Below the pieces are notes generated by a model, which was given only the letters and a program-made list of their open reading frames with translations, made no database searches and was not told the DNA's origin. A stretch of 64,000 nt of DNA from Deuterostichococcus epilithicus (taxonomy: Eukaryota; Chlorophyta; Trebouxiophyceae; Prasiolales; Stichococcaceae), in contig JAVTLE010000013.1 in the NCBI GenBank assembly GCA_033439295.1, forward strand, positions 620,001-684,000, read 5' to 3'. This document shows positions 7,266-44,018 of the stretch, piece by piece; within the stretch, counting starts at the first letter, position 1; the number at the start of each line of letters is the position of its first letter. The translations under genes were made by a program, and so were the position numbers.

Positions 7266-10200
7266 TCACCCCGCCGTGCCGTTGAGCTCGGCCCCTGCCG
7301 CGAGGCGGGGGAAGTCGGTGAACCAGGCGCCCTGCCGCATCATCTCCTGCAAGTGCAAATAATCTCGCTGTGAATGGATCAGTCCTTTTACCGACCTTTA
7401 CATGGCGCTGCAATGGAAGCTACAGTTTCCGGCCAAGACCGCTTCCAGAATGGGGCCGCAGCCACCGTCATGCCTGAGATGTTGGCGGCGTCGCTACCTG
7501 GGCGCGGCGACAGACGGCTGTGCTCGCCAACGAGGCGGCCCCGCTGCGGCGTCGCTTGCGTCGAGAGCCATGCATCGTCGGCGGGCCAGGCTTTGCTGGC
7601 GCAGTCATTGCCAGCGCAGGACAGGAGGCTTCAGTGCAGGGGGCTCGGCTGCGCCACCTTTGTGAATTCGTGCAGGGCGGGCACGTCCACATATGTCGGC
7701 GGCGGCCCGCTGTAGCCATGCAGCTTGCGGTACTCGTGGATGCAGATCGAAAACGTTGACGTCACAAAGCCCACAAAGCCCTGCGGGGCACGAGAAGGGG
7801 CAAGCTTATCGACAGAGTCTGTCTGCAGCGCGCTGACCAAGGGCGTCAGCCCCAGATCAACTGCTTGTTCTTTGGACGGTTTCGTCTACTGTGATTCCTT
7901 TCCTGCTTGTGTGACGGCCCGCACGCTGTGCGCCGGCCCCCTGGCATATCCGCAGCGCTTTGCTCAAACCTGATCCTGGCAGCATCCTCCTGGCAGCTCA
8001 TCAAATCAAGAGTGGGCCGTCAAAACGCACCCTGGACTGCGCTAGCACCAGAAAGTCGATGGCAGCGCGCTGCTCGGAGTGCAGCCGACTGAGCTCTTCC
8101 TTCCCTGCCGGTCAGCAATCACGCAACTTAGTGCTGACTGAGTGTTGGCTATGGTTTGCGGCGCAGGGTGTCCCTAGGGTGGACATAGACAACTCTCAAA
8201 GCTGACCCACACGAGCCCCTATGCCCAAGCCGGCAGCAGCAGCAGCAGCAGCAGCAGCAGCCGCACGCGACGCCCCTCCCGGCTTTCCCCATCAGACCGA
8301 CAGCCGTGTCAACTGGTGCAGCCCGGCCCGTCTGGGGGAGCAAGCTGTGGGTGGGGGATGCAGGCTGCGACCGGAACTCGACCACAGGCCCCGCCGCCCA
8401 GGGGCGTGGCGCAAACGTGACCTTCAGAGGGCGCACCCAGGAAGCGGGTCTTCTCGTAGACTGCAGATGCGGCGGTGCGGCGCAGCGCCGCCAGGTGCCG
8501 TTTGTTGGCCGGCGTCATGTTGGAGAAGATGCCCGACGCCACATACTGCACGAATGCGGACAAACGAAAGTTTTCTTTCATCAGCATTCGTAGTGTTCTG
8601 CTGTGTTTCGTTTTGTTCGGTTGCCGCAGTGCCGCCAGGTGGCGTGTGGTCGCCGCGTCTGGTTGAAGAAGACGCTCACTGCCGCACACTGCCAAGACAG
8701 GGACACATTCCTCTGAATGTGTCCCTTGCTCATGTGGTTGCTTACAGGCGGCTGCATGCTGTGCATTAATGAGATGCCGCGGGTGCAATGGCCCGGCCGC
8801 CGCCGCAGAGCCAGTCGGCCCAGACGTGCAGCCCGGCGCTTCCTGGATCACGCAATCCCCTGCCATTGTCCCTGGTGCACAACTACTCACAACGCAGCGC
8901 TTGGCTGCCTGCATGAAACGTGCGACCAACAGAAGCCTGCACGGCTCATGTGCCGCTCACCAGCGGAGTTTTGGTGTCGAACTTCGCTGCGACAGCGGCC
9001 TTCATGTAAAACGTCCACAACTGCTTCAGACCGCCAAACATCTCGATCCATGCCGCAGCGTCTGCTTCCAGCCGCAGGTGCAGCCCATTGAACACCGCCC
9101 TGCCACTCTGCCGCCTGATGCCGTCTGCATGCGGGCAGAGAAGTGGAGTGGCATCAGAGAACATCAGGCACTTGACCGACTCCCCGGCAGGTTGCGTGCT
9201 AACGTTGAGAAAAACGGAACAGCTGCAGTCTGCTGTGCGACCTATGCATCACAGCACGCACAGCAGGCGCGCTGCAGATGCTCAGAGGCAGCCGCCGTGG
9301 GAGGTGCCTGATTCAAGACCCTGGCGGCGGATGGCCAAGGCAGCTGTAGCGTCACATCTGTGCATCGCAAACGCAGGTGCAGCAAATCCGCTGCGACAGG
9401 CTTCGCGAATACTTTGGCTTCAGTCTTATCTGAAAGATCCCACCAAACCTGCAACGGTGCGATGCGGGCAATGACAGCATGGAGGCCGTGTCGCAAAGTT
9501 TGAAAGTGTATTCGGTATCTTCTGGCCAAGATGCGCACCGGTGATGTGGGCGGCGACAGCATGCAGCCGCGGCGCAAAGTCCAGGTTCAGCGCCACCTCG
9601 CTCATGAGCGAGCTGCCCTGGGAGCGCACGCCAAACAGCACGCACGGCAGCAGCAGTAGCAGCCGGTCCGGCGGCGAGTGCAGTTTGAAGGCTGTGTGCC
9701 CGCCAGCATCCTCCGCCTGCGCAGCAATGAAACCAACTCTGGGATCTGCCAGCATTGCACAGGCAGTTACATGACCTGACGCCATGGCAGCTACAACAGC
9801 GGATCAGGAGAGGCTATCTGCTCAGGTTGCCGGCTGGCTCTGCGGTGTGGCACCCCCGCATTGCTTCGTATGTTGCAGGGCAAGCGAGGCGTCGAGGTAG
9901 TGGGCAGCACGCGGGCAGCCCTAGCTCTGTGCGGTGTGCGAAGCTGTCGGGCGGCCGGCGGCGTACGTGCCCGGGGCGGTCCCAGCAGCACTTTCCGGGC
10001 TGATGGCGGCATGCGCTGCGTGAGGTGGCAGGGGCCGCCGTTGCAAATCAGGAGGGCGGGGAACTGGAGGGCGTTCTGTCCACTAAAACCCTCAAACAGG
10101 ACGTAAAACTCAAACAGGATGTACCGGCTGCACCCAGCCGTCCCGAAGGCTTGGGTCCGACAGGTCGTTGGGGATGACATCGTCGGCTCCCCGGTCCAGC

Positions 10201-13200
10201 GGGAAACCCCACTCCGCGGCAAACGTCTGGTTCACCAGGTACTGCCCCATGAGCTCCCAGACCTGCGCGTGCCGGGGGCCTGATTTCGAGGTTTTGTGTC
10301 TCTGCAGCTCAGTCGCCTGATGCACCCAACCAGGCACCGTCCCGAGGGCTCCCACGCCCGAGCGCACATACGCCTGTTGCGATGCACGCCTCGGGCTGGC
10401 GCCTTGGAGCCGGGGAAACCCCCCGCAACCTGCGGCGTACGCACGGAACGGCTGCGCTCTCGCAGCGCCGCCGCAGTGCGTCTCTGCGACCCAGGCGTGT
10501 GCACACCTAACCGGTGCGGACGCCAGACATGCTAAGGGCGCGGACAGTATCCGACATGCCACGGGCGCCGGGCGTTACCGCGCAATGACGGCTCAGGCCC
10601 GGGCATCCGGCAGGCAGAACGAAGGGTCTGGCTGCGCGCAGGCGAGCAGGCATTGAAGTTCGCAGTTGTGACACCCGGCACAGGCAGGATTACAGGGGCA
10701 GGTACAGGGTTTTGGGCTCAAAGGGGTTGGGCTCCCACCTGGACGCCCTCCTGCCAGTCGGAGGCGTTGATGCGCTGGTCGTGGGCGAGCAGGCTGTCGG
10801 CGCGGAAGCGCGAGGCGTTGCTTTCCCGCAGCACCGCCCAGTGTGGCACCTGTGCCCGGAGGTCCGCCACCAGCTCGCCGCGCACCTGCAAGAGGGGTCT
10901 GAGGACTGTGAGATTCAGGACTGTGAGAAGGGTTCGACCGAGGGTCTACATCTCGACGAGGCTCAGCGGAAGTGGGTCCAGCGGAAGCGTTGCCGAGTGC
11001 GGCACCTGCGCCCGTAAGTCCGCCACCGGCTTGCGGTGCACCTGCGGGGGTTCAGGGTTCACAGGTTGTGAGATCACCAGGTGTTGTCAGCGGTTGCGAG
11101 TTCAGCGTACAAGGCGACCAGTGCAGTATCTGCGTCCGTCGGTCCGCCACCAGCTTGCTACGCACCTCAGGGAATGGTTCATGGCTCTAAAGGAGGAGCT
11201 AGACAAAAGCCATTTTCCGTCTTGCAGCATCGCCCAGTGCAAGACCTGTGCCCGCAAGTCCGCTCACCAGCTCGCCGCGCAGGCGCCATTTTCAAGCTAT
11301 CAAAGTGCAGAAGGGGGCTGCCGACAGCAGCTTCAGCAGCAGGAGAGTTTCAACAGCAAATGGAGCAGGGACGCTGATGAACAACTGGCCGTCAGCTAAT
11401 CGTGTAGGTCCCAGAAGATGAGAATCAGTAACGCAAGGGTGCAGCGCCCCTGGCACCCTTCAAGGGCGTCCAAGGGAGGACAGCATCGCCGCGCCCGGAC
11501 ATGGCAGGCAGCCGTTATTTCCTTCCAAAAAATCTCTCTAAAGTCGCACCAGGCGCCAACGCAGGCCGGGGTGGTCCTTTGGGGAAGGCCCCTGCGTGAG
11601 GTGGCGCACGTAGGCGTCCACCCGTGACCGCGCCAGGCCCGCCCATTCTTCCATGGCGTACAGCTCGTTGGCCATGTACGGAAAGCGCACCACCTGCAGC
11701 AGAAGCAGCAAAACACAATGAGACAGTTAGAAAGGATGGAGGAGGATGGCAGGTGTCGAGCCGCGCCATGCCCGCAACCTCTTCCAACGCACACAGCTCG
11801 TTGGTCATGTACAGGAAGCACGGTACCTGGACACAGTGTGGATGACTCGCAAACCCAGATGAGATGTAGAAACCGACTCGAGATGCATGGAAAGTGTAGG
11901 TGAGATGGATCAATCCCGTGTCGGCCAAGCGTGGTCATTGTCCTGGAGTGGTCTTCTGATTGTAGAAAGTCAGGCCCTACTTGCAGCTCACAGGAAAAGA
12001 TGTGCTGGTGTAGCGGTGTCGCCTGGTGTTGGTGCAGGTGCAGGTGGGGCCGGGCTAAAGACCGCCGGCAGCATGAGGCCGCTGCTGCCAGCTTGCACGG
12101 TGCCCGGCCGCCGCCAGGGCACCGATGAACATGCGCAGACTGGCAGCGGCGCCGCGGCAACGTTCAGAGCCGGTGAAAGTCACATCCTGAGGCAAGAGGA
12201 GGCACCTGGTGGCGTCCCAAGCCGTAGGGGTTGAATGCGCCAAAGCCGTCCGGCACCCAGTGCGGCAGCAGCGTTGGCACCTCGTAGACTGTGACGCCCT
12301 TTGCTGCATTGCCAGGGACGCACGCCACGTCAGGCGGCTGCTGACAGTGCCAAGCGCCGCTCCCTGTCGACGCTGGCTAGCGGGACAGCAGATGCGTGCG
12401 TCGGCGCGCAGGGTACAGCAGCAATTTATTAGCGTCGGCAACGTGTACTGCTGCCACGGCGGCAGGGCGGCTCTTGCCTCCACCAGGGGCTTGGCACTGC
12501 TCATGTAGTGTGCGCCAAGACAGCAGCACAAACGCCTGCGACCAGCCCCTCAAGGACGCATGCATCTGACCTTGCGCCCTCGACAACCAGCAAGAGTCGC
12601 ATCTCGCGATTGGTGCAGTCCATCCAGCATGAAGGCGCCACTCACTGGCTGCATAGGCGCGCAGTCGCCGCAGGTCCCACACGGTGCTGGCTGCCACGGG
12701 GCTCCACGACGCTTTGGTGGCGTCGACAGCGAATTTATTGCGCCGCATCGCCGGCGGCATGACCTGCAGGCGCAGCCGGCACGCTCATGCCGGCATTCGC
12801 CATGTGCCTTGGTGTGGTCTCAGCAGCTGCCCTCGAGTCACCTTGAGGAGGCCATGGTCGCCTTTCAGCAGGTGCTGCTGGCACAGTCGGAATCAGACGC
12901 CGCAGCTCCAGTCCGCAGCGGCACACGAAGCGGAAGTATGAAACTGCATCGCGCCACTGTCGCAATGCTCCGACCGGCCACAGCTGCGCTGCCATGTCCT
13001 GCCGGCAGGAGGCCGCTGTTTCCATCTCCTTGTGTTAGCTGACAATCTTCGCCAGTGTGCCATGCTGAGGAGACAAGCTGCAGGGACCAGCGGTTCTCAC
13101 CACGCCATCCGCGCCAAGGGCGATGGCCATCGCGATGCCCGCGACATGGCAGTAGTGCTGGTTGAACAGCCCGCCGCACGCCGCATAGCGCACAACCAGC

Positions 13201-13789
13201 GACGGCGGCTTGCCGCTGGCCGCCGGCCCCAGGCCGCCCGCGCGCCTCATGTAGTGCCCCGACGCCGTCTCCTCACGATCCAGCAGCTGCGGCGGCGGAA
13301 CCGCCCGATCCAGGTCGCCATGCGGCCCGACACCTGGCGCACCGGCGGCGGTTTTCATTGCTCGAGCCCCGCTGTCCATCCGGCTGCACAATGTTCAAAC
13401 GTGGCGGTGATGGTCCAAGCAGCGGCGGTGCCACACCTGTGTCAGTGCCCCGCAGCCAGGACCCCGACGGGAAGCCCTTCCAGGCTGCCACGAGGAACGC
13501 CGCAAAGGCAAGCACCTACAGAGACACGGAATCTGTTGCATGATTTGCAAGTCGACTCAGGTGTGAAGGGCAGTCGGTTGTGACGCACCACAGGTGCAAA
13601 GAGCAGACAGCTCTGAAATAGCTAGCCAAGTCAAGTAGGATTCTGCTGTTCGAATGACCAGCGATTATGCATAGGGTGTCGCGGTGCTCGTGCGCGCAGT
13701 GCACCCCTCACCACGACCGACCGGCGGTGTCGGAGCTTTTTTCGGAGGTTTCCTCCTCTGCTGTTTGTGCGAGGAACTCGGGGTCGCAT
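7266..13789 (-). CDS. O-fucosyltransferase family protein (plant-type, type II Golgi membrane)
   Basis: Predicted GDP-fucose-dependent O-fucosyltransferase-like enzyme of the Golgi, 587 residues in 14 exons: 13712-13789, 13437-13515, 13101-13333, 12646-12763, 12206-12303, 11550-11693, 10739-10885, 10125-10262, 9539-9716, 8961-9124, 8437-8545, 8031-8104, 7658-7780 and 7266-7346. All phases close. The N-terminus is a basic stretch plus one helix (VVVLAFAAFLVAAW), a type II anchor. PF10250-like landmarks in order: CGGLFNQHYCHVAGIAMAIA (the GGLNQ glycine-rich start), VMPPAMRRNKF, YEVPTLLPHW, VALNLDFAPRLHAVAAHI, FNGLHLRLEADAAAW (the LHLRxExD motif), YVASGIFSNMT, EELSRLHSEQRAAIDFLVL and FVGFVTSTFS. 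The acceptor and substrate cannot be told. Introns carry decayed copies of three exons (10739-10885, 11550-11693, 8437-8545), listed separately. Confidence 0.88.
8233..8261 (+). repeat. (GCA)n microsatellite in an intron
   Basis: Near-perfect GCA trinucleotide run in the intron between exons 8437-8545 and 8031-8104 of the O-fucosyltransferase gene; non-coding in this gene model. Confidence 0.9.
8610..8655 (-). repeat. Decayed copy of O-fucosyltransferase exon 8437-8545 core
   Basis: Read on the minus strand this intron segment translates as TTRHLAALRQPN, against KRHLAALRRTA in the real exon. It lies upstream of the parent exon in the preceding intron. It lacks a continuous frame with its neighbours and is probably not spliced. 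Confidence 0.6.
10985..11290 (-). repeat. Three decayed tandem copies of the acceptor and 5' half of exon 10739-10885
   Basis: At about 10985-11050, 11115-11170 and 11228-11290 the minus strand repeats the acceptor and first 50-60 nt of the downstream exon, which encodes VRGELVADLRAQVPHW. The copies read approximately VHRKPVADLRAQVPHS, VRSKLVADRRTQILHW, and a third with an inserted base. Spacing is about 120 bp. The first copy even keeps a CAG|GTG acceptor context. They are ordered tandem relics of one exon edge in a single intron. Confidence 0.85.
11750..11830 (-). repeat. Decayed copy of O-fucosyltransferase exon 11550-11693
   Basis: The intron upstream of this exon contains a segment translating on the minus strand as FLYMTNELCALEEVAGMAR, against FPYMANELYAMEEWAGLAR at the start of the real exon. 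The copy includes the acceptor side but runs into unrelated sequence after about 80 nt. Confidence 0.88.
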
Positions 13790-16390: not shown

Positions 16391-19300
16391 ATGTCATGTG
16401 CGATGCTGCAGTGCAGTCCCGCGGGCCGGTGTGGGACAGCACCCTTTCAGGGCAGCAGCAAGGCGCTGCGCCTTCCCCGCAGCCAGACCTGCAGAAGCAG
16501 ATGCGAGCCGCAGCGTCTCGTGTCCTGTACCGCAGCCCGTGATGAACAATCCTTGGTGGGCACCTCTACTCTATCACCAAGCCTGCTGCGTCGCTTCTTG
16601 CAGCTGAAATCCACCTTAGATGATGTTTGTGCATCGTAATAAGCCTGGTCACGCTTCATCTGGTCGTCGGGCAAGTGCCAACGTGTTGCAAGTATCGAGT
16701 GATCTACGCAGGTGTCTGCAGCGCGAGACTTTCTGCGCACCACAGCCCTGGGCCTTGCGGCTGTTGCAGCCATGCAGATGCCGGGGGCAATGGCACCCTA
16801 TCAGGTGGGTCGGTCCGCCGGTAGCTCGAGAACCATCACGCCTGTGCGGATGCACAAGACAGTGTCGTCAACAGAATGGCAAAGCTCCTGCAGCGATGTT
16901 CAGCCAGGCACACGCCGGGGATAATCGCGCATTCGTTGGCTGCGTTGTTGAATGCTGCGATGTGCTGCGCCTGCAGCTTATGCCACCGGCAGAGGCAGGC
17001 CTGCTTTCAGTGGAGCCTGTTAAAAATGCGCGGGCATTGCTGCGGTATTCGCTGCCAATCAAGAACGACAAAATCCGGGACATCCAGGTGCCTACCAATC
17101 TTACTGCGTGGCCCCCCTTCATCGCGATCATCACGTGTTGCCCTGATCCAGCAGCTTTGCCATGACTGCGATTCGGGGGCATGATGCCACCTGCTTCTTT
17201 TTTCACGGTGTCATCCTTTGTTCTGCAGAAAAGCCTGGAGTCGGTGTCAGAGCAGCTGCGCATCCCCGGCAGCAAGTCGCTCGGACCCATCGGCCAGGTC
17301 GGTGTTGGAGCTTGGCAGTGTTGGTGGTGCCGTCAGTCAGTGACGGCAGAAGCTTTCGCGACGGCAGAAGCTTTCGCTGGGCTTTTGTTGTTAAACTCGC
17401 CCAGGGCTTCCTGTGTTCAGAGACAGTCTGTGTTGGTGGGTGTACTTGAAGCGCGCCGGCCGTGAAATTGTGCTCGTGCCGCTCGCAGTCGGTGCGGCGG
17501 GCGCAGGGCGCACTAAACGCGAACAAGGGGAAGCTGGAAGCAGAGTTTGCGCCTGAGCACAAGGCGGAGGGGCAGGCAGCCATCGAGAAGCTGGACGCAG
17601 CGCTGAAGGAGTTTCAAGTGGTGATCGACGCCAATGACAAGCAGGTGAGGGTCGGCACCGGTGCTTGACAAGCAGTGCATTGGGTCTCACCGGCGCTAGA
17701 GTCGCCACTGGCGCTCGAAGCTTTTGTCCAGACCTAGCTCTGGGCGCTGTGTCTGCATCTTCCACGAGTGTGTCTTGAAGGGATTGCTGACCGTGCCACA
17801 GCGGTAGTGTGATGCTTGCGGCGACTGCGGCAGATTTTTCCGGCGGCAGACAATGCACGGTACTGGCAAGTTGGCTGGCTGTGATCAGCAGGGCCTGCCG
17901 GTGTCCCTGCCGGGAAAGAAAGCAAACAGTGCGGTTGTAAAACAGCCCGCGCTGTTGGTGGTAGTGAAGCAGCAGCAGGCGCTGAGGTTTGTGGGCGCCG
18001 TTGAGGAGGCACATACGGAGTCGATAGGCGGATGACACTGATGGAAGCAGCAGCTGCTGATGCACGTTGTTCTGCAGCCAACTGCGCAGTCGGTGGTCGA
18101 GGAGCAGCTGCAGGCAGTGCCGTACGTGGGCGCCGTAAAGGAGGCACCCAGCCTGGTGCGAATCCGTGGCACTCGACTTGGGGACGATCAGCTGATGGGC
18201 TGCTGTTGCTGCGCAGTCGGTGATTGAGAAGCAGCAGCAGGCGCTGACGTATGTGGGCGCCATCGAGGAGGCCATGGTGAAGGGATTCCCCTTCGAAGTA
18301 CCGAAGGACTACGACAACCTGCCCCAGCTCAAGGTGCGGCGCATCCCTTGAGACCACAGTGTGTTGTTCCGAGGGGCTCCAGGTTGTGTCCCTCGGAGCG
18401 CTCTGCCTGCTGCCGACTCGTGCCAGGGACTTTGACCACCTGCACCAGGTCAGGGCGCGGCGGCAGGCCGGCGTGGAACGCTCGCAGTCCCTGCTTCTGC
18501 CTGCTGTCCGCAGCTGTGTGATCAACCCACGCATGACGCACCATGAGCGCAAGTGCTCCAGTGGTGCTGAGGCGCACTCGGCTCACGAGATGTCCGGCCA
18601 CTCTTCAACCCGTTGGCTTCTGATTGGCGGCGGCTCATACCTCTCCTGCTCAAACCAAGTACCCTGCATCGTGCAGGGCCGGGCCACGGTGGAGATGGGG
18701 CTGACGTTCAAGACGGCGCGCGACAACGGTATCAAGGGTGGCCTCATCCGCATCGTGAGTCTTTAAACCGTCTCGGAATACCAACCGTCTGTGTGCTGTG
18801 GCTCTGGCATCAAGGGCGGCTCATCCGCATCGTGCGCCGCCATTGCCCCTGGATCGCAAATCGCAGGCCACTTGCGCAAATCGCAAGTGGCCTGCATGCC
18901 ATGGCTTGTGGTGACAGCCATGTCAACACGACTTTGCTTGTGTCGCTGATCAGCGGCGCCGGGGCGGCGCACAACCTGGCAGTTACCTGGACGGATTCTA
19001 CTCGCTGTGAGTGCGTGTCATCTGTATCCGCGTACGGACCTAACACCCAGCATGCACTGGGTCCTGCGCACCACGCACCCTCATATTCTGGTCCGCCCAG
19101 GTGGTGGACGGATACAACGCCCCCGTGACAGCGGGCAATTTCATCGACCTGGTCAGCCGCAAGTTCTATGACGGGCTCACCATCCAGCGCGCCGACGGCT
19201 TCATCGTGCAGACCGGCGACCCTGACGGCCCGGTGCGCCACTTCGAAATCCCCTAAATCCCAACCATTCTGGGCGCGTGCAAGCGGGCCCGTGTGCCCCC

Positions 19301-20959
19301 AAGGAAGGGGCGCGCGGGGCGCGAGCTCGTCGTCGCTGGCTGGGCCTATGAGCTGTCCTTTTTGGGCGTATGCGAGGCGCCTGAGCCGTCGGCAGCATGG
19401 GCCTGATGCCAGCACGCACATGCACCCGGCCATGCTGCCGGACCAGCCTGCCGCTCCCGTGCACTGTTGCTCCCCCGACGTGACCATGTCACAACAATGG
19501 GTGCCACCCCTCGCAAGCCCGGTCCCCCGCCAAACCCTAAACCTGCGGTTTCCGCACCGCAGGCGACCGGATTCGTGGACGAGGCGACGGGCAAGAACCG
19601 CACGGTGCCCTTCGAGATCATGGTGCAGGGCGACAAGACGCCGGTGTACGAGGAGAACCTGGAGGACAATGGCCGCTTCAACGAGCAGCCGGTGCTGCCC
19701 TTCAACGCCTACGGCACGCTGGCGATGGCGCGCTCCGAGTTCGAGTCCAACGACGCCTCCTCCCAGTTCTTCTTCCTGCTCAAGGCGCGACACGCTTCTG
19801 CTCACAAACCCTAAACTCAAGGGGCTGCGCCGTCCCGGTCTCGTTGCTGCCCAGAGCATGCGCTCGAGTGCCTGGTCCAGTGGCGTCACAGCGTGGTTAG
19901 GGAGGCAGCATATGTGTGGGCTGGCGCTGGTTGGGACAGCACTTGGCAATGCCAGGGGCGGTCCATCTGAGCATGTCGGCCTGCTGCAAGCTGGTCGCAG
20001 CATGACCGGAGCAGCTCGCTACATATTCTGCGCGCGTGTGCTTGCCGTCTTCTTGGGCCACCAGACTCCGGGAGCCTGCGCAGGGATGCGAGCTTGACTC
20101 AACCTCTGCAAAACGCTGCAAACGTGGTAAGCGACGATGAAGCGTGGCTGCCCCCGTTGTGACACCAAGATGATATTGTGCAACACAGGAGTCGGAGCTG
20201 ACGCCTACGGGCAGCAACCTTTTGGACGGCCGCTTCGCGGTGTTTGGCTACGTGGTCGACAACGCCGACCTGCTGGGCGAGCTGCAGGTGGGTTCAGGGT
20301 TTAGGCGCGACCATCCGTGGTTGCCGCCCCTGGTTGGAAGGGTGAAGGGCTTTCACATCAGGACTGTCTGTCCGTGCGGCCGCGCGACCACCTGGCCCGC
20401 CACCAGGGAGGGTGACGGCTGTGCTGCGCGATGAGGTGGCGCAGCCAGCCGCGCGGGCGTGCTGTGCAGCATGCCACACGCAGCAAGTTAGCACCTTACA
20501 GCTGGCTGACGCCTTCCAGCGGGCAGGGGCGGCACGCTGAGCACCGGCCCGGCAGCTGCCTGGCCTGGCCAGTGGCCCTCTGGCCTGCACCTGTGCGACA
20601 ATCCAACCCGACATTCGAGCCTCTGAGACATGACCTCTCATTCTTTTCTGCAGGTGGGCGACAAGATCGACTTCATGAAGGTGGTCGATGGCCTGCAGAA
20701 CCTCCAGGTGGGTCCGCGGTTTAGGGTTTAGGGTTTGGCCACCCTTTGCAGCCTTGGACTTGAACTTGTCCCCCCCGGTGCGGTGCAGCACCTCGCAAGG
20801 GTTGCGCTGCTGAGCAGGCTTCTGACATCACGCGCATGCGCGCATCCAGTCCCACTCTGCACACTCTGCCTGCGTGCTGAACGCACACCTCCTGTGTCGG
20901 AGCAGGCACCCAAGGCGGGCGCGACAGCGCAGCCGATGGGCGACGACAGGGTCGCTTGA
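16391..20959 (+). CDS. CYP38: Thylakoid-lumen cyclophilin-type protein CYP38 (TLP40)
   Basis: Lumenal cyclophilin-fold protein needed in plants for photosystem II assembly and repair. Twelve exons, every intron phase 0: 16391-16555, 16712-16804, 16977-17087, 17229-17297, 17489-17644, 18217-18333, 18677-18754, 19101-19232, 19563-19784, 20189-20287, 20654-20707 and 20906-20959 (last one inferred from phase, acceptor and stop). Product about 449 residues, close to Arabidopsis CYP38 (437). Exons 1-2 give a bipartite plastid and lumen signal ([22 protein letters not shown]; the RD rather than RR still fits Tat-like import). Then come the helical bundle ([33 protein letters not shown]) and the cyclophilin domain ([47 protein letters not shown]). 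The intron after exon 9 begins with GC. Introns 5-7 carry decayed exon copies. Confidence 0.95.
17959..18160 (+). repeat. Two decayed copies of CYP38 exon 6 in intron 5
   Basis: At about 17959-18025 the intron reads [19 protein letters not shown]. At about 18081-18160 it reads [19 protein letters not shown], preceded by a preserved CAG acceptor. The real exon 6 (18217-18333) reads [19 protein letters not shown]. The first copy keeps an open frame of about 30 codons across the match. Confidence 0.92.
18420..18450 (+). repeat. Decayed copy of the 3' edge of CYP38 exon 6 in intron 6
   Basis: Reads ARDFDHLHQ followed by GT, against [11 protein letters not shown] before the GT donor of exon 6 at 18333. 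It lies about 90 bp past the true donor. Confidence 0.65.
18806..18836 (+). repeat. Decayed copy of the 3' edge of CYP38 exon 7 in intron 7
   Basis: GGCATCAAGGGCGG.CTCATCCGCATCGTG repeats the exon 7 end and donor (GGTATCAAGGGTGGCCTCATC.. at about 18730-18756) with one base lost. The direct repeat is about 80 bp downstream of its source. Confidence 0.9.
19531..20738 (+). repeat. TTTAGGG-like words in four consecutive CYP38 introns
   Basis: AAACCCTAAACC at 19531-19543, the same word at 19806-19816, GGGTTTAGG at 20297-20305 (10 nt after a GTGGGTTC donor) and three tandem TTTAGGG-like units at 20718-20738 (10 nt after a GTGGGTCC donor). All are intronic. Confidence 0.85.
19785..20188 (+). other. 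GC-AG intron of CYP38
   Basis: Exon 9 ends FFFLLK and the next exon starts ESELTPTG. The only donor in frame before a stop codon 30 nt later is AAG|GCGCGA; there is no GT in that stretch. The acceptor is ACACAG at 20188. Confidence 0.85.
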
Positions 20960-24346: not shown

Positions 24347-27300
24347 ATGGACGGAGAAAGTCTTGTGGACCCGCTGCTGCCGCCTTCCGGCTCGCAGGCG
24401 CCCCTCACTCGGCCGCGGCTGTTCATCAATCCATGGGTGGCATTTGCCGCGTGCACGGTGCTGCAGATGCTGTCAGGCGTCCAGTATGTAGTCGTCCTGT
24501 GGGCCGGGGACCTCAAGGAAATCTTCGGGTACAGTCAGGCCCAGATCCAGGGCATGATCTCGCCGCCGTTCTTCGTGGCCGTCATCGGCTGGCTGCCGGG
24601 GCTGACCTATGACGCCCTCGCCCGCCGCCACCGCCTCGGCCCCAGGTGACTGTTGGCGCCCTGAACATATGCTGCAGCTCGTGAATTTCTCTCCAAATAA
24701 TGGTGCCACCTTCCGAGCAACAGTGCTGAAGCATTCCGCCTTGACGTGCACTGCGAGTTTCCGCCTTGATTCGGCAGGGTTGTCATCGCCGTCGGGCTGG
24801 TGCTGCACTTCTTGGGGCACTTTGGCCTGTTTCTGGGCGCCACTGGCCTTTTATCGCTGCGCTACTGGCAGGTGTTTTTTTTTCCACTGCTGACTGACGG
24901 GCGCTGCCAGCTCCCCAATGCCTGAACGCACCTCGGCAACCGGTCGAGCTTGACATGACATGAACGAGCACTCCTCCCAAACCCATGTGCAGGTGGTGAC
25001 CCTGGCAGTGGTCGGCTTGTCTGGCGGCGGGTGGACTGATACTGCCGCCATCGCCACCAGCATTCGTAACTTTCCACGCCACAGGGGCTCCGTCGTTGGT
25101 GAGGTTTCCTCGGCCATCATGATGCATCTGCATAGATTGGCACCTGCAGTCTTGACACCCCATTAAAAACCAAGATTTTGTTGAGTTATTAGAAATATAA
25201 TGCGTGTTTTTGCAGGCATTCTGAAAGCGTTTGTCGGCCTCAGCGGCTCCGTGTTCACCACTGTGTACATGGGCGCCTTCAAGCCCCACATGCTGCACTT
25301 CCTGCTGTTCCTCGCCGTTGCCCCGCCGCTGGTGGGCCTGGCGCTCGTGGGCTTCGTCAACGCGGTGCCGCCGCGGTCGCAACCGCGGACGCCGCTGCCG
25401 GCGATCCGTCAGGGCGTGCTTAGCCAGGCTGCCGGAGGTGGGTGCACTTCGATCTGCCAATGTCTGGGCACGGCTCTCCTCCTTGGCATCCAACAGCATG
25501 CTTGGCCTGCCAGGCTGCGCTCAAGAGAGCCGCACATTACACTGTGCAGATCAAATGGGGTGTGCCTGTCGTCAGGTGCCCTTGTAACAGGCAAGCGGAA
25601 TCGATGACTGATGCTGATCTTCGTGTTGGCACAGACGTGCGGCTGCAAGCGGCGTATCTCGCCGTGCTGCTGCTGGCCTTCTACCAGCTGGTCATCTCAG
25701 CGGTGGCAACGTCCGATGAGCGGACGCCCACAGAGCGGCGGGCCTTTCTGACCGGCACCCTGGCACTCATTCTGCCGCTGGCGCTGCTGCCATTGGGCTC
25801 TGGCGGGCTGCTGTGGCGCGGCGACCTCAATGACAGGTGGCCTCTTGGCTCGTGGTTCACAAAGCAGCACTGCGGGCTGCTTTGTTGCGGCGACCTGAAC
25901 AACAGGTGGGTGTCGGGAAGCAGCCCCGATGGTGTTGCGAGCTGGCTGCTATCATTGACATCTCGGCTCAGAGGAAGCACACCTCCATTCCTGCTTGATC
26001 GGAGGCCAAACCTGAAGTTGCCTGCGCTGCCGTCAGGGAGGAGCTGCATGACGCTTCGCCAAAGAAGGGCAGCACGGCGCATGCGGCGGAAGAGGGGGGC
26101 GGCGGAAAACCATCGCTGCTGGGCCTCAAGCGGTGCGTCGGCACCTTCTGCGAGCGGTCTAGAGCAAACAGGACATGCTTTTCCTGTGCCATCTGCGAAG
26201 CAGCTGCAGCAAGGACCTTGTCACATCTGCAGCGGTCGTGTGGACATGAAAGGCAGCATCAGGTCTGCGCAGTGCACTTGCACTTGCGGCCACTGTCAGT
26301 GGACACAAGCAACTGCAGATATTGCAAGCTGTGTGACCCGCTGCGCTTCAGGAACATGTTCTGGCTGCACGCTCGTGCTGGCGCAGCGCCCGCCACAGGA
26401 CAGGCGGGACCTCTGCTGTCGGACAAGTCGGCCTGCATGTGCTCGGAGGCTGGCCCGCTGCTGTGGGCGCCGCTGCCGCAACACGAGCCGCCGAGGCGGT
26501 GGGGTCCGGCTGCCAGCCCTGCAGCAGGTAGCACCGCGGCAGCTCACGTGCCCGCGCCGCCTGCTGCGCCCGGGCCGGCGCCAGCAGTGGAGCAGCTCTT
26601 CTGCACCCAGCAGCAGCACCATCAACTGAGCACGCCACGAGAAATCCAGGCGCCTCAGAAAGCAGCGGCAGCGGCGGCGGCGGCTCGACATGGCGGCGTT
26701 GCGGGAGGCATGCAGATCGGCGCGCACCGGCCGGCGGCGGCGGCATCAGCCCCCATCACCATTGGCGGCCGTCGCCACGACTGGTGGGCTGTGCAGCTGC
26801 AGGAGCACCGCGCGGGGTTCGTGCGGCGTTGCGACCTGCAGGTTGACAAGGTGCATTTCATTCTGGCAGCCGTGCCTGACGCTCTGCTGCATTTGCCCCT
26901 GCACATGCTTTCTGGCCTGCGCGACCAGAGCTCGACGGGAGCCAGCTAATCTGGTGCATGAATTTTCACCTGTCTGCCCACCTGGCGCTGAGCTCCTGCT
27001 GACACAAATACCGTGCGCGGCAACTGCGGTGCCCTCGCCCTGTACCAGATGAGTACATAGTGCTGAACTGACTCGCCGGCTCTGGTTCAGCAGGACGGCG
27101 CCGGACCCGCAGACCCCTGCCAAGAGTTGGGCGAGCCGCCGGCCGGCGGTCGGCTGCCGACGCTGATGTGGGACCGCCGCGTCCCCGCCGCAGGGGCGGT
27201 GGCTGCTGGCGAGGCCGCAGCCGTAAGTGCCGCCGCCGTGGCGCGGCAGCCGGCACGCCGGCCTCAGCCGGCTCGCCGACAGCGGCGACGCAAACTTCAT

Positions 27301-29967: not shown

Positions 29968-31309
29968 TCAGTAGGTCTGCAGCTTGTGGCAGGGCTGGTC
30001 CGCCCGCCCCTCTGCACAGGCACTGGGGCAGCCGACCAGGCAGGGCTGCCGCGACGCCTCATCCGCCTCAGTCGGCGGCGGCCGCTGCCCGAAAGTCATG
30101 GTGCACTCATAGGTCTCAAAGTTGGGCTCCATTGTCAGCGGCATTCCCAGCTGCTCTGTGAAGAACGCCTGCACAGGCACATGCCTCACGGATGTGACTG
30201 ATAACGAATGGAGCGAGCACAAGAAAATTTTACAAGAACATCTCACAGGCTGACCCACAAAGGTACACATCAAAGGAGCACAGCCGGGAATGAACTTGCC
30301 TGGGTTGGCGATTTGCAGAGGTTCACGCACATGCCAGCACATGCCGACTCTGCCAGGTACCTGCAAACCAGTGACGCAACTTTGAGATGATTCAGAGAGG
30401 TGCATTTGCAGTATTTTGGAGCTGTGACTGCCTGTTCCGCCTCTCATTTGCATTGGGTTGCCATTTGCAAAGGGCCGAGGCCGCCTTGGGCTCGCCAAGC
30501 GGACATCCTGACCTGCAACGCTTGATGTGGACGCCGCTGCGCTGTGTGACACCGTTCACCTCCACATCCACCCGCTCCATGGGCCCCACCTGCGGATAGC
30601 GCCCCGAGCCTGAGTCTCCCCTGTGTTGCATCTGTTCATGTTGTAGCACCGGCGTCACACAGGATAGGAGACGAGGTGGGATCACAGACCAGCGGAGCCG
30701 CAGCCGCTTACGAGCCAAGAGAAGAAGGCGGGTGTGATGAGGGCATTGAGCTCTGCGCCCCACTTTGAGTAGGGGAACAGCCGCCTGAACCACGGCTGGA
30801 TGGCTGGAAAACCGGCAATCACAGCGGCGCGCTGCTGCTCCGCCGTCTTGCCCTGCAGCAAAATACCCGTGGATCATGTTGTGGAGCTCGCTCTGATGCG
30901 TGACATGCGGCATGCTGATGTTGAGCTCGCTCTGTTTGTGCAACGCGCAGTCTACCTTCATGAGCGCTCGCGACACTTCAATCATGCCACCGTACGTTTC
31001 CGGCCCGCTGTCCCAGCCGGCTTCGCTCTGCCAGCCCGCCAGGTTGCCATAGGCTTTGCGGCACATCCCGATGAAGGCAGCGTCCATTGCGCTGTCGCTC
31101 CATTCAACTACCTCTGCGTTCTGAACGCCCGGCGGCGCCGGAATGCGGTAGGTCTGAGCGCGATCCTGTGCAGCAGCGCTGAGGACCCTGCGACTTCGGC
31201 TTTTGCAATGTAATATGGAAGCGGTATGGCTGCCTGAGAGCCGTCTGAGGGCATGGCGCTGCGGCAGACATGCTGGCGGGGCTCGCAGCCAGCCAGCTGC
31301 TGCTAGCAT
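29968..31309 (-). CDS. D27: Beta-carotene isomerase D27-like, plastid
   Basis: Iron-containing plastid enzyme that in plants interconverts all-trans and 9-cis beta-carotene, the first step to strigolactones; an alga may use it in carotenoid or retrograde chemistry (inference). Five exons: 30956-31309, 30712-30852, 30513-30589, 30300-30360 and 29968-30168; 277 residues. Exon 1 opens with an Arg/Ser/Ala transit peptide (MLAAAGWLRAPPACLPQ). The DUF4033 domain shows YLAESACAGMCVNLCKSPTQ, FFTEQLGMPLTMEPNFETYE, CTMTFGQRPPPTEAD and a Cys-rich end (QPCLVGCPSACAEG), all hallmark D27 blocks. The intron after LCKSPTQ begins GCAAGT, a classical GC-AG intron. The gene is divergent from NAA50. Confidence 0.94.
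30169..30299 (-). other. GC-AG intron of D27
   Basis: Donor CAG|GCAAGT after the conserved CKSPTQ and acceptor TGCAG before AFFTEQLG. This is the standard GC-AG donor form. Confidence 0.9.
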
Positions 31310-32253
31310 GTATATGCCTGGCGAACGGTGGAAGCCTCAAGATGAACCTGAGCAGTGTTGACCAGTGGGCGTCTGCAATAGCAAAGAAGGAAGAATGCAG
31401 CAAGGCATTCGTCGTCCGTGATGATGTCCTGCAGGGTTTGAGCTGGAGGGCTTAATTGTGCGCAAACGAAGACTTTGATGTCTGCAGCGGCAGTGCGGCA
31501 CTCCGTGGACACTCTTAGAGTTGTGTGATCGTGGATTGCTTTGGTGGTCGGCTACCGTTCAGGTCGTTGTACACATACAATACTTGCCGGCCGAGCTCAG
31601 AGATTGCACTGGCCATCACGGTCACCAACGTCAGGCTTTGAGATCAGTCGCTAGAGCTGAGATGGTGTGAAACAGACTTCGGGTGCCAAGTATCGGCAGC
31701 GGTATGCGTACAGCCCGCCCTGATCTTTTCGCAAGGATCCCGGCTGCGGCTCTTCGTCCACTCCCCGCTGCACGAGGTCGGCAGCGCGTCGCGGTCACGA
31801 AGACATCTGCAAGGCAAGCACCTAAGTGCATGCAGATGCTGGAGCGAGGTCTCCGTTCACTGTGAATTCGTCATGGCACATGGAATCAGCAGTTTGAACG
31901 CCCCCAGCGCTGCTGAGGGATCGGACTTGCCGCACCGCAATATCCTCTTTCAATCCATCCGATCAGATTGATGTTTCGAAGCCAGCGCGGTTTGTCGCCG
32001 GGCTGGTGTGCGCCCTGCTGCTTCCCACCACTTCCGCAGGAAGCCGGAGGCCGACTGAGGCGCCACGGCCATTAGTTCGAATCTGTCATGCATATCCACT
32101 TAGAAGTACCCTTTCTTCAAGCTCAGCATTCGCGGCGATCTTAGTGCTGACCGCATCAGCAATTAGAATTAGTCTATCTCGTTGACGCGGGTCTGAGAGG
32201 TCCCTCCGGCTGCAACTCTCACGCACGTTCTTTCTGATCACAGCGGTTTGGAC
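31310..32253. promoter_or_regulatory. Divergent intergenic region between D27 and NAA50
   Basis: About 940 bp head-to-head spacer that must contain both promoters. Nothing coding is supported; no motif assigned. Confidence 0.35.
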
Positions 32254-33656
32254 ATGGGCACGGGTCAGAAGCTGCAGGTCACCTTCGACGGGCTGCTGCC
32301 GAAGAATATTGAGCAGCTGAAGATGCTGAACGCGGCGCTGTTCCCCATCAAATACCAGGCGAGGATGGCATCCCAGCGCATAGACTGCCACAGTGCAGCC
32401 TCATATTCTGCACGTCATCCGATGGCATGACACGGCGGTGGATATAACACGATACCTGCGGATTGTGCCACAGGACGGCTTTTACAGGGAATGCTGCGCA
32501 GCCGGCGACGTCACGCAACTAGGTGAGTGGCTTTGCAACATGTGGCGTGCCGTGAAGAGAAGTGCATGTCAGCACTGATCTTCAAGGACCCCACATGAAC
32601 TGATCATCGTTGCTCACATTGCATTCGTTTCCATGTCGGGTTGTGCCAGGCAAAGCGTGATTACATCACTCCAGGATTGCCGAACCAGCTCAATGAGACG
32701 ACTGCTTGGCTCGCGACTTACAGCCTCCGGCACATGCATCTGCAGCATACCACAACGACGTACTGGTGGGCGCAATCGCATGCCGCTTCGAGCTGCAGCC
32801 CGACTACAGCGCCAAAGTGAGTGCTGCCTGCCTGCGGCACACCGGACATGCGGGCTGCGGCTGACCGTACGTCCCTCGCCTGCCAGCTCCAACCACTGAC
32901 GCGGCCGGCAATCAGCTGCCGGCAATGCGGCCAGCGTGAACCGCTAGGCATTCGACAAGCGCCCTCGACCCGCTTGTGGCTGACACGCTGCCGGTGCCGG
33001 GTGCAGATGTACATCATGACCATTGGTGTGCTGGCGCCCTACCGCGGCATGGGCCTCGGTGCGAGTTCGCTGCGCCCGCTGGCATTGATCGACAGATTGT
33101 GGTATCGCCTGCAGCGCGCAGGGCTGCACTTGAGAGCCTGATGCCGGTCCGCACGCGTAGCACAATGGGCTGTGTGCTGCTGCGATGCCGGGTCTTCCCA
33201 CAGAGCTGTCACAGCTGAGCCTGTCGCGTACTTGCATCAGACTGCTTGGCTGTCGATGCGCAGGTCGGCAACTCATAGAGCGGTCGCTGGATGTTGCGAA
33301 GAGAGACCCCAACATCAAGTCAGCCTACCTCCACGTGCAAGCTACCAACGAGGTGCAGCCCTACACTTCGAACCCTCGACACATCAGCATGCCATGTCAC
33401 GCTCTGTGCCAGTCCGCGGCTGCAGGCCGGCTGCAGGCCGGAGCTCATATGCTGATTGGCAGACAAAAATGCAACTCGACCCACCGGTGGCACAACCAAC
33501 GTGCAGGAAGCGGCAAGCTTTTACAAGAAGTTTGGGTTCCGGGAAACGGAGGTGGTGAAGGATTACTACAAGCTGGCGGACGGGCGCGACGCCCTCATCC
33601 TCAGCCGCAGCCTGGCAGATGAGCCCGAGCCGGTGCCGGCGGTGCAGCCGTCGTAA
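32254..33656 (+). CDS. NAA50: N-alpha-acetyltransferase 50 (GNAT family)
   Basis: Catalytic NAA50 acetylates nascent N-termini starting with Met (NatE) beside NatA on the ribosome. Six exons: 32254-32358, 32474-32522, 32746-32816, 33007-33058, 33264-33352 and 33507-33656; 171 residues against 169 in human. The start ATG gives GTGQKLQVTFDGLLPKNIEQ, aligning with the plant N-terminus. Then come LNAALFPIKYQ, AYHNDVLVGAIACRFE, YIMTIGVLAPYRGMGLG (the acetyl-CoA-binding RxxGxG/A loop, here Y-R-G-M-G-L-G), SAYLHVQATNE and EAASFYKKFGFRETE. Intron 1 starts GC. The last exon's 3' edge is repeated just past the stop codon. Everything from exon 4 on lies in the 11-kb duplicated segment, whose second copy (from 44024) is decayed. 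Confidence 0.95.
32359..32473 (+). other. GC-AG intron of NAA50
   Basis: Family alignment requires PIKYQ joined directly to DGFYRE, which sets the donor at CAG|GCGAGG and the acceptor at CACAG 32473. A GT donor 40 nt further on would insert a dozen residues into a conserved block. Confidence 0.85.
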
Positions 33657-33659
33657 CAG

Positions 33660-33720
33660 GTCGTCCTCAGCCGCGGCCTGGCAGACGAGTCGTCAGCAGC
33701 GGCGGCGGCTCAGGTGTCCT
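33660..33720 (+). repeat. Copy of the NAA50 coding end past the stop codon
   Basis: Reads VLSRGLADE after the TAA at 33654-33656, repeating ILSRSLADE of the last exon. The same double structure is present in the decayed NAA50 fragment of unit B (44600-44710), so the local repeat predates the 11-kb duplication. Confidence 0.88.
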
Positions 33721-34594
33721 AACAGCACAGCCGCAGCAACTCAGTCAACTCTCACATCAGCGCCATGCAGCCGTGTGGCGGGGCGAGGCCCTTGGTGAAG
33801 CGAGCTGCGGGCCTGCGGCGACGGCGAATGCGGCACAATGGTTATTGCGGTGGCTGCCGCGGTGCCGCGCTGATCTGGCGAGCTGGTGGACCAAAGCAGC
33901 AGTATCTGTGGTGCGTGGCGCGGTGGCCCTTGGGTCGGCAGGCAACTGTGTGGACTCGGCACGTGCGGTCCCAGTGCTGTGCTAGGCCTGTCCAGATAGC
34001 CACCTAAGCATCGGCAATGAGTGCACGAAGCCGTCAATGGCGAAATGCAGCCACCGCGGCGACGTCGAGCGCAGAGGCAGCAGCGGCATCAGCGTGCATC
34101 TTGGTGTCGCACAAGATCGTCTGCTAGCGCTGTGCCCTCGTTGGCAACGTGCAGTCCGACTAGCTAGCAAGGGCAACAGGCAGCGCGGAAGACCCTGTGT
34201 GCATGCCGCTAAGCAACGACCTAAATCATCAGCGTTGGAGTTTGTGATTTCCTAGCAGATGTAGACTTCCAAAGCAGCAAGTTTCAATCGTCAGGAAGAT
34301 TTAGCCATTCATTTGATGTTTAGCTTCGCCAGCCTCGAAGCCTTTAAAACTGGTGGTACAACGTGTGTGCAACGCGCCAATTACACACTAGGTAGGTAGA
34401 CTCTAGGAAGACTTGGCTGCTTAGGGCCTCTGAAATAGGACAGTTTCGCAACCCAGCGCTGCATATCATGAAGATCATGTGCCAACGAGTTCATAGTCTA
34501 TCCAGCACTGGCACTTGTATGTACAACCCACTGCTGTTTGGTCGCAACCCTGTCGCAACTCGTCAAGGAAGCGGCATGCGCAGAATCTGTGCCG
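33721..34594. other. Convergent intergenic region
   Basis: Spacer between NAA50 (plus) and aminopeptidase A (minus). Sequence at 34085-34170 has a recognisable counterpart in unit B near 45005-45075. No gene. Confidence 0.5.
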
Positions 34595-37500
34595 CTACCT
34601 GCCGTCCAGCCAGCCGCACAGCTCCTCGGCGTGGCGTGACAGCCACGCGCCGTTGCTCGCGACTGCGGACAGCGCCGTCGCGAGGTATGGCTTCTTTGGC
34701 AGCGCCGCCGAGTGCCGCTGGAACAGCGTGCGCAGCTGCTGCGCTGTTGCGCCGGCAGCCGGCTGCTTGGCAGCATCCACAACGAGGGCTGCCACCGCGC
34801 CCGCCGCCCGGGTGGTCCCGCCCAGTTTCAGGTATAAATCCTCTACGTGCCTGCAGCACGAGGGCCGGGCTCCAAGCTTGGTATAGGTGCTGACGAGCGG
34901 TTGTGATGCGGGAGGCTACTGTGAATCGTAATTGCAGGCATGCTCTCATACTTCTCACAGACGCCCCAGCGCTCAGCAGCACTCAGCTCCACCTGCAGGC
35001 TACCCACCTGTCTGCATGCGGGCCTGTGTGATTGCAGATCGCAGGAAGCGCGGCCAAAGACCGGCCGAAGAAGGCGCAGGGCGCAGGCACACATACCAGA
35101 CCAACCAATCTCGTGCGAACATCGAACATGCGGCCCCCGTCCCCGTGTGCGTTGAGCAGCACACCCGGCGGCGCAGTGCACGCGCGCCTCCGCACGATTT
35201 GAGCAGCAATGCAATGCACACGTGCGAGGCCGTGTGCGCTGAGGGGCCTAGGGTTTTGCGCTGCTCGCCACTCAGGGCCTCTGCTCACCGCTGCAGGTAG
35301 GCCCACACTTGGTGCGCGCCGCCAGCCGCGCCGCCGCCGAGCAGCGCCCGCAGCAGTGGCGCNGANTCCTGNGGCCGCGTGGCGGGCGCCAGCGCCAGGG
35401 ACAGCACCCCCTGCAGCTGAGCCGGCTCCACGGCGGCGCCGAGGGCGCTGAGAGCGCGGTCCCGCACGGACGGCGACGGATCCTGCATGTATGTTGACAG
35501 GTTTTGGGTTGAATCCCAGCTCCACTTGGTGTTTCAGTACACAGGGGTGCAGGACTCATGCACCGAGCATGTCAAGCCCTCGACTCGTCCGTCTATGTGG
35601 GTGAGAATTTGCTAAGAGGCAGGCAGCCGGGCTCATTAGTGCACAAGCTCGAGCGGAGTGCCTGTGGAATGCTGAGTCCCCAACAATTCCGAAAAGTCGT
35701 TGCGATGGCCGCAGGGGCTTACACCTTGAACCCAACGGGCCCACGCACCGTCTGGTACGCATTTTTGACGGCCTGGTACGACGTGGAGTCTCCGCTCTGC
35801 ACCGCAAGCTGCGCTGCCACGGCTGAGAGGTCCGGAGGCACCGCCGCCGCGCCGCCGCTGCTTATCCGCTCGGCCGCCTCCGCCCGCAGCGTCTCGTCGC
35901 CAAAGTCGCCTGCTTGACAGTTTGGAAAATGAATGGCTTTGGCTCGCCCTGGTGTTGCGGCGCAGTCAGACAACTGGCCCACGATTGCCTGCAGGGTCTT
36001 GCTGCGACACTGACGCTTCCAGCCTGCATGAAGCCTCAACAGGCCAGCATTTCGTTGGGCGGTCGGGATGGCGGTTCACGCACGAAGCGGGGCAGAAGTG
36101 CAGCTGCGTGAGGGTAGGGAGGCGCGCCTGCTAGCCTGAGGATCAGCGGCCGCACGAGCCGGAGCTCCGTCCCGTCGACGCTGCCCACCACGAAGCTGCT
36201 GTCACCGCCCGCCGTCACGGCAGCCAGCGTCGACGGCAGCACCTGGCACACAACAGCAATATGCATTCCAATGCGTTCGGCGTCTGTGCATGCTTCGTGG
36301 GCAGCCTCCGTCCGCATTTCTGGTCAGGTTTTCCATGGCACGCTCACCTGGGATCGCACGAACCGTGTCCAGCCGCCGGTACACTCCTTACGATCGGGGC
36401 TGCCGCTCAGCAGCGCCGATACGGCACCCAGGTGGCGGACTGCAACCGCCCAGGGGGAGTACTCTGCGCCGCCGCGCCGCCCTAGCGACCTGCCCGGAAT
36501 GTGCGGCATACCCTGTTCAGCTCGCCACCCAACGAGAGTTCGCATAGTGAAGTCACCCCGGTGGCGGGCCGCCACTCCCCAGGAAGGGGGATACTGTGCG
36601 CCGCCACAGTACTGTGTGTATGGTAGAGATGAGGCAGGCGGCAATTCTTGAGGATCCCCAGACCATGCTGGGACACATTCGGAATGCTTTGCTGGAACGG
36701 CAACACAACACGGGGTCGTGCTCCGTGACCTGTCATGCGCGTGCTGGCGTACCTCAACAAATCGAGGAAGGGTGTGATGTGGCCCCGACCAGCCCCAGCA
36801 ATCGCCCAGGCGTCGTCAAGGAGGCCCGCAACATCCACCTACAAAGTAAATCTTGTCACTGTGAGCAAAACATCAGCGGGCAAGCAAGTCGCTCTTGAAA
36901 ATCAGCTCATGGCCCGCCATGTTGGTGTGGTTGGCGCGCCTGTCCCGAGGCGCGATGGACATGCAGCAGTGACAACCGCCCCCGTTTGACCGGTGATCGC
37001 CGCAGCATGCAGCTCCAAAGCTCGCAGGGTGTCAGCTGAATGGTCTCTCTCAGTGTGTTTGATGTGCCAAACCCCGCGCACCGGCTGCAGCTGGCTGCCA
37101 TCGGCGGCTGCGGCCGCAAGGTGGGACCACAGCTTTGGAGGATACTGCACCCGCAGCGGCACCAACTGCCCGGCGTTCAGCTTCACCCAGCCGCGCCGTG
37201 AACTTGCCACCTCCAGCAGCGGCTCGCCTGCAGCCGGGGCCAGGTGTGTGATTCAGTGCGCGTCAATGTGCAGTGTGGTTCACACAAACCAAGGAGTTGT
37301 TGCGAATGCCAGCAGCATCCAGCAACACCAGGCCAGCTGCAAAAGGCAGTGGCGCATCAGCGATGCCTACACCATGCTGCGCACAAGTGTTTGTAGGATT
37401 TGAAGTTTGAAGGCAGCGCTGCATACAGTCGGGCTCGCAATGTGCCCGACAGCGTTGGAATATCTGGGCTATGGAGTTTTCTGGGCAGGTTTGAAGAAAG

Positions 37501-43815: not shown

Positions 43816-44018
43816 ACGGGAACGCCGACACAGATGGTGGCCGCGATGCTTGTTGCACCTGCGCGTCACGTGCGTGCCCAGCCTGGACCGTCCTGCGGTG
43901 AGCGCATCGTCTAGCATACGAGCGGGTTTGGTCGGAATTTTCCGCTGTATCTCTGATCCCACCTGCTCAACGGCTTGTCGGAGGAAGCTCCACATGATGT
44001 GGTCACCCTCGTCGCCAA
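43816..44018 (+). pseudogene. Truncated 5' fragment of the fibrillin-like gene
   Basis: Matches the region around 54905-55108 at the start of the fibrillin-like gene, including an ATG-GxGGCCGCGATGCTTG start and the CGGTGAGCGCATCGTC donor-like context. Similarity stops at about 44018, where NAA50 sequence begins. No downstream exons remain. Confidence 0.8.

Follow-up and report, generated by a model that had tools for sequence, protein, structure and literature searches.

Decayed copies of exon edges beside their parent exons in the green alga Deuterostichococcus epilithicus

What process leaves recognisable copies of exon starts and ends beside the exons from which they came? The question is raised by a 64,000-nucleotide stretch of the genome of the green alga Deuterostichococcus epilithicus (assembly GCA_033439295.1, contig JAVTLE010000013.1, positions 620,001 to 684,000; the whole stretch is called the window below). 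In several of its genes, including CYP38, an O-fucosyltransferase (O-FucT), a nodulin-like transporter, a gene labelled NAA50 and two aminopeptidases, such copies, here called ghosts, lie in the neighbouring intron or past the stop codon. The present work confirmed that these exon-edge copies are real and local, that roughly a tenth of the sampled exons have one, and that they lie about 120 bases from the parent.

Frequency and placement of exon-edge copies

The material comprised the window, both of its flanks and eighteen 10-kb stretches taken from 16 other contigs, the additions coming to 200 kb. The total of 264 kb represents 0.56% of the 46.8-Mb, 21-contig genome; labels such as L003 and L016 denote sampled loci outside the window. 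Exons were predicted from sequence by a self-trained exon-chain finder, which gave 50 gene models and 629 exons. The predicted introns have a median length of 228 nt, with donors of the form CAG/GTGNG and acceptors of the form TGCAG/G (the slash marks the splice junction). Some models are faulty: the two aminopeptidases were fused into one, and some ghosts were modelled as exons, including parts of those in CYP38 and O-FucT.

Each exon was compared with the adjacent noncoding DNA, 450 bp on each side, after 34 of the 629 exons, shorter than 30 nt, had been left out. Of the remaining 595 exons, 53 matched at 28 bits or more, against 0/595 in a distant-window control and 1.8 per 595 expected by chance (five control sets, 28 bits). 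Across thresholds of 19 to 24 bits the excess stayed at 57-63 exons, a plateau of about 60 exons (10%). Block-shuffled sequence gave no pair of at least 32 bits at an offset below 2000 bp. The shuffled-sequence and distant-window controls rule out chance similarity as the source of the copies. A reading made earlier from the window's letters alone (the sequence-only reading) had held that the similarity goes beyond random local resemblance; this was not refuted by the comparison of exons with adjacent introns against distant DNA, run on the 264-kb sample, in which the similarity was far above controls, local, and present on other contigs as well.

Self-comparison of the 264 kb yielded 64 local direct pairs (at least 32 bits, offset up to 450 bp). 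Offsets were sharply peaked: 30 of the 64 fell at 100-140 bp, no pair had an offset under 60 bp, and pair density per 20 bp of offset was 15 at the peak vs 0-0.4 beyond 600 bp; copy length was not sharply distributed. Introns make up 58% of the sample and exons 31%, yet a predicted exon took part in 61 of the 64 pairs, and one of the three noncoding-only pairs linked two ghosts. The copies were direct only, as all 40 inverted hits of at least 32 bits within 450 bp were self-overlapping palindromes. A 52-nt near-perfect self-palindrome (92%) was also noted at L007 7040-7091, with about 40 weaker palindromes across the sample.

Exon-start copies are located upstream and exon-end copies downstream of the parent, the few exceptions being ghosts modelled as exons, and the two kinds are about equally common (33 start vs 25 end edges). 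The copies span 24-100 nt, represent mostly partial exons, and are found in mid-intron or beyond stop codons. Stop-containing copies of the last coding segment were found just downstream of the stop at L010 (166-231 and 292-358) and in the window (33595-33725). Such copies of coding ends suggest that the process is not limited to splice sites.

Boundary, composition and decay of the copies

Pairs of at least 30 bits were used for the junction and flank analyses. A coding repeat (L003 5257-5559) was removed from the decay, flank, boundary, composition and simulation comparisons, and pairs with the outer end outside -15 to +16 or outside -9 to +16 were removed from the flank-similarity and flank-composition sets, respectively. 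On the exon side of 29 start and 23 end edges, identity was 70-86% over the first 35 nt. On the intron side of these edges it was 65-70% over the first 5 nt, 41-49% over the next 5 and mostly about 30% thereafter, with single 5-nt bins further into the intron ranging from 20 to 45%. The outer end of the match fell within -8 to +3 of the splice junction in 44 of 68 pairs (71 rows less three far-interior ones, at 114, 553 and 164). Near the junction, at 8-40 nt, the flanks showed a small excess of similarity (5.45 vs 5.02, p = 0.005), as they did by a second near-junction measure (7.21 vs 6.44, p = 0.003).

The flanks also carry a trace in their composition. Just upstream of exon-start copies, stretches of 25 nt had an acceptor-composition score of +0.35, vs -0.71 elsewhere in the same introns (p = 0.0004, paired p = 0.0016, alternative control p = 0.0019). 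Twenty copies entered this comparison, after 9 of 29 had been removed because they fell outside the modelled intron. The model's training set, real acceptors, scores +0.61, and AG is retained in 9 of the 20 copies. Acceptor-like composition makes the ghosts look like former acceptor regions, even though their flanks can no longer be aligned with the acceptor now in use. It favours an old duplication that took in the entire splice region over a bare exon fragment inserted in an arbitrary intron.

Mismatches at codon positions 1, 2 and 3 in 40 exon-noncoding pairs were 89/581, 90/586 and 124/577 (15.3, 15.4 and 21.5%; a pair at window 38476 was removed from this count), and 23 of the 34 gaps were single-base. 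Equal mismatch at positions 1 and 2, together with gaps of 1 nt, fits a freely decaying copy next to a slowly evolving exon, and on these grounds protein constraint on the copies is rejected. Tandem exon duplication and alternative exons are rejected on the same two features and because the copies are mostly partial. Identity reached at least 90% in 6 of 45 single-step pairs. Since the excess of matching exons does not rise at lower thresholds, there is no sign of a reservoir of fainter copies. The suggestion that many stages of decay are recorded here was thus only partly right, with those six pairs at one end and no fainter reservoir at the other.

For calibration, an 11-kb tandem block holding the GNAT gene and an M1 aminopeptidase was available (32994-44015 vs 44024-55104, 70-77% identity, introns included). 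Its two halves differ by 15, 11 and 23% at codon positions 1, 2 and 3 and by 33% in aligned intron. Over 41 shared edges, flank similarity scored 15-70 nt past the junction had a mean of 18.8 and exceeded 10 in 83%. Paralogous introns thus align, and intron homology of that age is detectable here where present. Two ghosts common to both paralogs had identities of 0.62 and 0.51, vs about 0.54-0.70 per bin in the surrounding intron (gaps counted). The block contains one short oppositely oriented segment (37281-37380 vs 48489-48587), and ambiguous bases (N) occupy 35360-35375 within an aminopeptidase exon. More tandem paralogs, 3-5 kb apart, were seen at L003 (1-297/4939-5241 and 2092-2678/5491-6086) and L006 (410-2365/5372-7701), and might provide additional calibration of rates.

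Origin of the copies

The reading that we prefer, though we put it slightly below an even chance, is that the ghosts are old duplications of about 120 bp across exon edges, in which the intron half has decayed and the exon half is still readable through constraint and exchange. A small local duplication around a splice site or gene end, with a unit of about 70-150 bp, would have copied part of the exon, the site and the adjoining intron. The inner site would have been kept in use and the outer site turned into intron, after which the intron half of each unit, which the original units probably included, would have decayed past alignment. Two things would keep the exon half readable: constraint on the parent exon and occasional exchange, by slippage or gene conversion, which presumably kept it young. 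The same exchange would also build multi-copy arrays. Introns would in this way grow longer and come to hold dead splice sites, but no intron would be gained; the ghosts look like relics of small duplications.

Exchange of this kind is suggested by a fresh tandem repeat at L014 9147-9469 (a 159-bp match at a 133-bp offset, 92%), which spans intron and exon start. Its match starts inside an older copy-exon homology (9147-9160 and 9178-9199 vs 9407-9420 and 9444-9465), a geometry which implies that slippage between ghost and exon can make a fresh copy; later loss of the older copy would leave a young exon half next to old flanks. Multi-copy arrays, with three ghosts in O-FucT, two in CYP38 and three in L007, fit slippage exchange. 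The pairs are direct and local, as in small tandem duplications; whole-unit similarity appears only in a minority, the near-full-unit ones being L014 9178, L016 3772/3879, L016 2207/2312, L004 4909/4986 and window 33595/33661.

Several observations weigh against this duplication reading. It needs two clocks, for the exon half differs by about 15-21% and the intron flanks are near background. Flanks 15-70 nt past the junction score 6.29 vs 5.90 in mismatched controls, with 2 of 58 edges above 10, and those of 22 pairs at 82% identity or more do no better than the rest. The copy excess is flat below 24 bits, though ongoing decay would leave a tail of faint ghosts. Within the paralog block no new ghost has appeared since the split, as none of the 16 alignment gaps of at least 12 nt holds a copy of the adjacent exon (one of the 16 overlaps low-complexity coding repeats). 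An exchange-like event was seen at one locus only, L014, and exchange at the other loci is presumed from it. Donor-side flank composition gave p = 0.098, and the sharp boundary at the junction is not fully explained.

Alternatives must be judged against the same body of evidence. Copying might be bounded by the junction itself, taking 25-75 nt of exon plus about 5 nt beyond the splice site and reaching about 120 nt into the adjacent intron, for example through templated break repair with limits set by splicing complexes or an exon nucleosome. The clustering of outer ends at the junction speaks for this, as do flanks that remain unmatched even at 82% identity or more (22 edges) while paralogous introns match. 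Noncoding pairs also agree, being 3 of 64 where a position-blind short-copy model predicts, per junction-spanning pair, about 3 noncoding and 0.7 exon-only. However, the flanks of exon-start copies resemble former acceptor regions, and two copies end at or past stop codons rather than junctions. Mature mRNA is excluded as the template, since 45 copy flanks did not continue into the spliced neighbour exon (mean 5.64 vs 5.66 in controls, whose 95% point no flank exceeded); processed-mRNA insertion is rejected with it. We know of no enzyme that copies in this manner, which also counts against the idea. Junction-bounded copying is considered unlikely, and the same doubt applies to the wider claim that a mutational process recognising splice junctions repeatedly copies exon edges into the adjoining intron and so marks one exon in ten. 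Less probable again is a patch-type repair, in which a staggered break at the exon edge is filled in so that 30-80 nt are duplicated and newly made filler separates the two copies; the old intron flank would stay with the outer copy, and the filler would become the new intron end. Unmatched flanks without exchange and the acceptor-like outer flank would both follow, and staggered breaks are, in the passages available from one study (PMC8355091), an established source of small tandem duplications. A filler of 50-80 nt would, however, have to act at once as a 3' splice region, yet start and end copies number 33 and 25; common noncoding copies are also predicted, and these are rare.

Ordinary recent tandem duplications, occurring anywhere and visible mainly at exons through exon conservation, are regarded as improbable. 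Constraint does prolong the visibility of exon-intron pairs in simulation, and the few full-unit pairs agree. But neutral full-unit duplication simulated at the rates of the paralog block gave matches that fill a median of 0.98 of the offset, where the 45 observed pairs fill 0.44. It also gave 0.8 noncoding pairs for every exon pair. Recent neutral full-unit duplication is disfavoured by both results. At t 0.30-0.45 the simulation placed 40% of outer ends within -8 to +3 of the junction, vs 65% observed, which disfavours an old neutral burst without exchange; such a burst would also need the reservoir of fainter copies that is not seen. Selection on the copies as functional decoys or alternative exon starts might explain the acceptor-like flanks and exon halves that are apparently slow to decay. 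It is given little credence, as mismatches at positions 1 and 2 are equal, most gaps are of 1 nt and AG stands in 9/20; moreover, the two paralog-shared ghosts (0.62 and 0.51; two copies only) are no better conserved than the nearby intron. Least probable of all, to a degree that makes it very hard to credit, is the route to which the sequence-only reading had pointed, intron gain from tandemly duplicated exon segments that contain AGGT. AG or GT does occur at copy junctions and copies do lie in introns. The in-register comparison of exon end and intron start with intron end and next exon start, at an offset equal to intron length, was nevertheless close to control in 511 introns of up to 400 nt (mean 7.15 vs 6.98). 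The excess was weak at the lowest score (115 vs 95.2 expected at 9 or more) and absent higher up (6 vs 4.4 at 14 or more; 0 vs 0.7 at 18 or more). With little or no such excess, and with copies placed mid-intron or past stops rather than at the opposite end of the intron, intron gain is unsupported. An origin from mobile elements or introners is likewise disfavoured: when five copy-bearing introns were compared with the 46.8-Mb genome, the best candidates scored held each query intron, the adjacent exon for four of the five, and nothing else.

Ghosts of the window and related systems

Pfam matches support the identity of CYP38 (PF21329 and PF00160; CYP38_PsbQ-like and Pro_isomerase), the nodulin-like transporter and O-FucT. 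The PsbQ-like domain of CYP38 and the base composition are in keeping with a green alga. Peptidase_M1 was matched in one aminopeptidase paralog (one of two submitted). The gene labelled NAA50, a name given by the earlier reader, contains a GNAT domain. A protein first guessed as PsbO had no PDB match and no Pfam match and is left unnamed. Every copy that had been named in CYP38, O-FucT, the nodulin-like gene, NAA50 and the aminopeptidases aligns to its parent edge, at 74-90% identity.

In CYP38 (forward strand), the parent exon start and its acceptor lie at 18209-18272 (gene-model exon 18217-18333, with Pfam support). By self-alignment, an outer ghost of this start at 17949-18012 has 85% identity to 18211-18272 (offset 262), and an inner one at 18082-18147 has 83% to 18209-18272 (offset 127); the two ghosts are 78% identical to each other. 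The end of the exon, with its donor, is copied at 18427-18462 (81% to 18306-18341, 36 nt, offset 121), and that of the next exon, also with the donor, at 18806-18834 (90% to 18728-18757, 30 nt, offset 78).

The O-FucT gene, on the reverse strand, has three ghosts of the exon start at 10828-10889: 10992-11045 (83%, offset 156), 11115-11167 (77%, offset 280) and 11224-11281 (86%, offset 396). The first two align mutually over 101 nt at 70%, intron included. Further ghosts of exon starts are located at 8625-8692 (77% to 8481-8549, offset 144) and 11761-11819 (80% to 11628-11686, offset 133), and a ghost of an exon end, new to this analysis, at 9451-9499 (78% to 9535-9580, offset 84).

On the forward strand, the nodulin-like transporter has a ghost of an exon end with its donor at 25872-25909 (84% to 25803-25840, offset 69), and the GNAT gene has its last coding segment copied past the stop at 33661-33725 (74% to 33595-33659, offset 66; Tandem Repeats Finder gives a period of 66). 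On the reverse strand, the left aminopeptidase paralog carries ghosts of exon starts at 36554-36605 (77% to 36425-36473, offset 129) and, not reported earlier, at 40032-40078 (77% to 39913-39959, offset 119). The counterpart of the former in the right paralog lies on the same strand at 47473-47509 and resembles 47349-47387 (77% over 39 nt). Taken by itself this match is weak, at 28 bits, and its chief support is the copy at the equivalent place in the paralogous intron.

Telomere-like heptamers were also noticed in introns. Of 14 intronic TTTAGGG, 10 are no more than 45 nt from a donor, a zone that holds 17% of intron bases, and none is within 52 nt of an acceptor. For CCCTAAA, 5 of 14 are that close to an acceptor. 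Examples occur at window 20700-20740. Shuffled introns contained about 7 of each in all.

Among the described systems considered here, the potato RdRp gene is the nearest in kind, as a tandem duplication over its intron-exon border created a new spliced intron according to the sections available from that report (PMC4974935). Both cases involve local duplication of an intron 3' end, an exon start and splice signals. The potato duplication, as described there, is single, near-identical and recent, whereas the copies here are many, decayed and placed in existing introns, with intron halves that can no longer be aligned. The AGGT model of tandem genomic duplication, as far as its available description goes (PMC3443670), likewise involves short local direct duplication including splice-site sequence, but its in-register signature at both intron ends was not found here. 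Tandem duplications are described as the most frequent kind of short insertion (<100 bp) in the human genome, and those attributed to staggered breaks are also short direct local repeats (PMC8355091). The available passages of that study describe no exon bias or junction limit, in contrast to the offset peak at 100-140 bp and the dominance of exon edges in this alga. For 213 introns, direct repeats 4-30 bp long were reported close to the splice borders (PMC11782384); they too surround intron borders, but in the portion available they compare the two borders of one intron, whereas here 24-100-nt copies of one edge lie inside the intron. Introners, in the part of their description available (PMC9860276), also represent mass intron change in algal genomes, but they are similar introns across many genes, unlike the five copy-bearing introns here, which had no relatives among the best genome candidates. 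No report of decayed exon-edge copies on such a scale was found among the matches listed from the open-licence literature, to which the search was directed rather than to subscription literature.

The feature, common and oddly regular in the sample, may be a variant of small splice-site duplication. On a practical level, gene finders may mistake ghosts for exons, as occurred here in CYP38 and O-FucT. A measurable share of the exons here has shed copies of its splice edges into introns, leaving a dateable record of splice sites that were duplicated and discarded. Such a record makes testable the rate at which splice sites are tried and lost, the exchange between exons and their ghosts, and the rarity of new introns resulting from the process.

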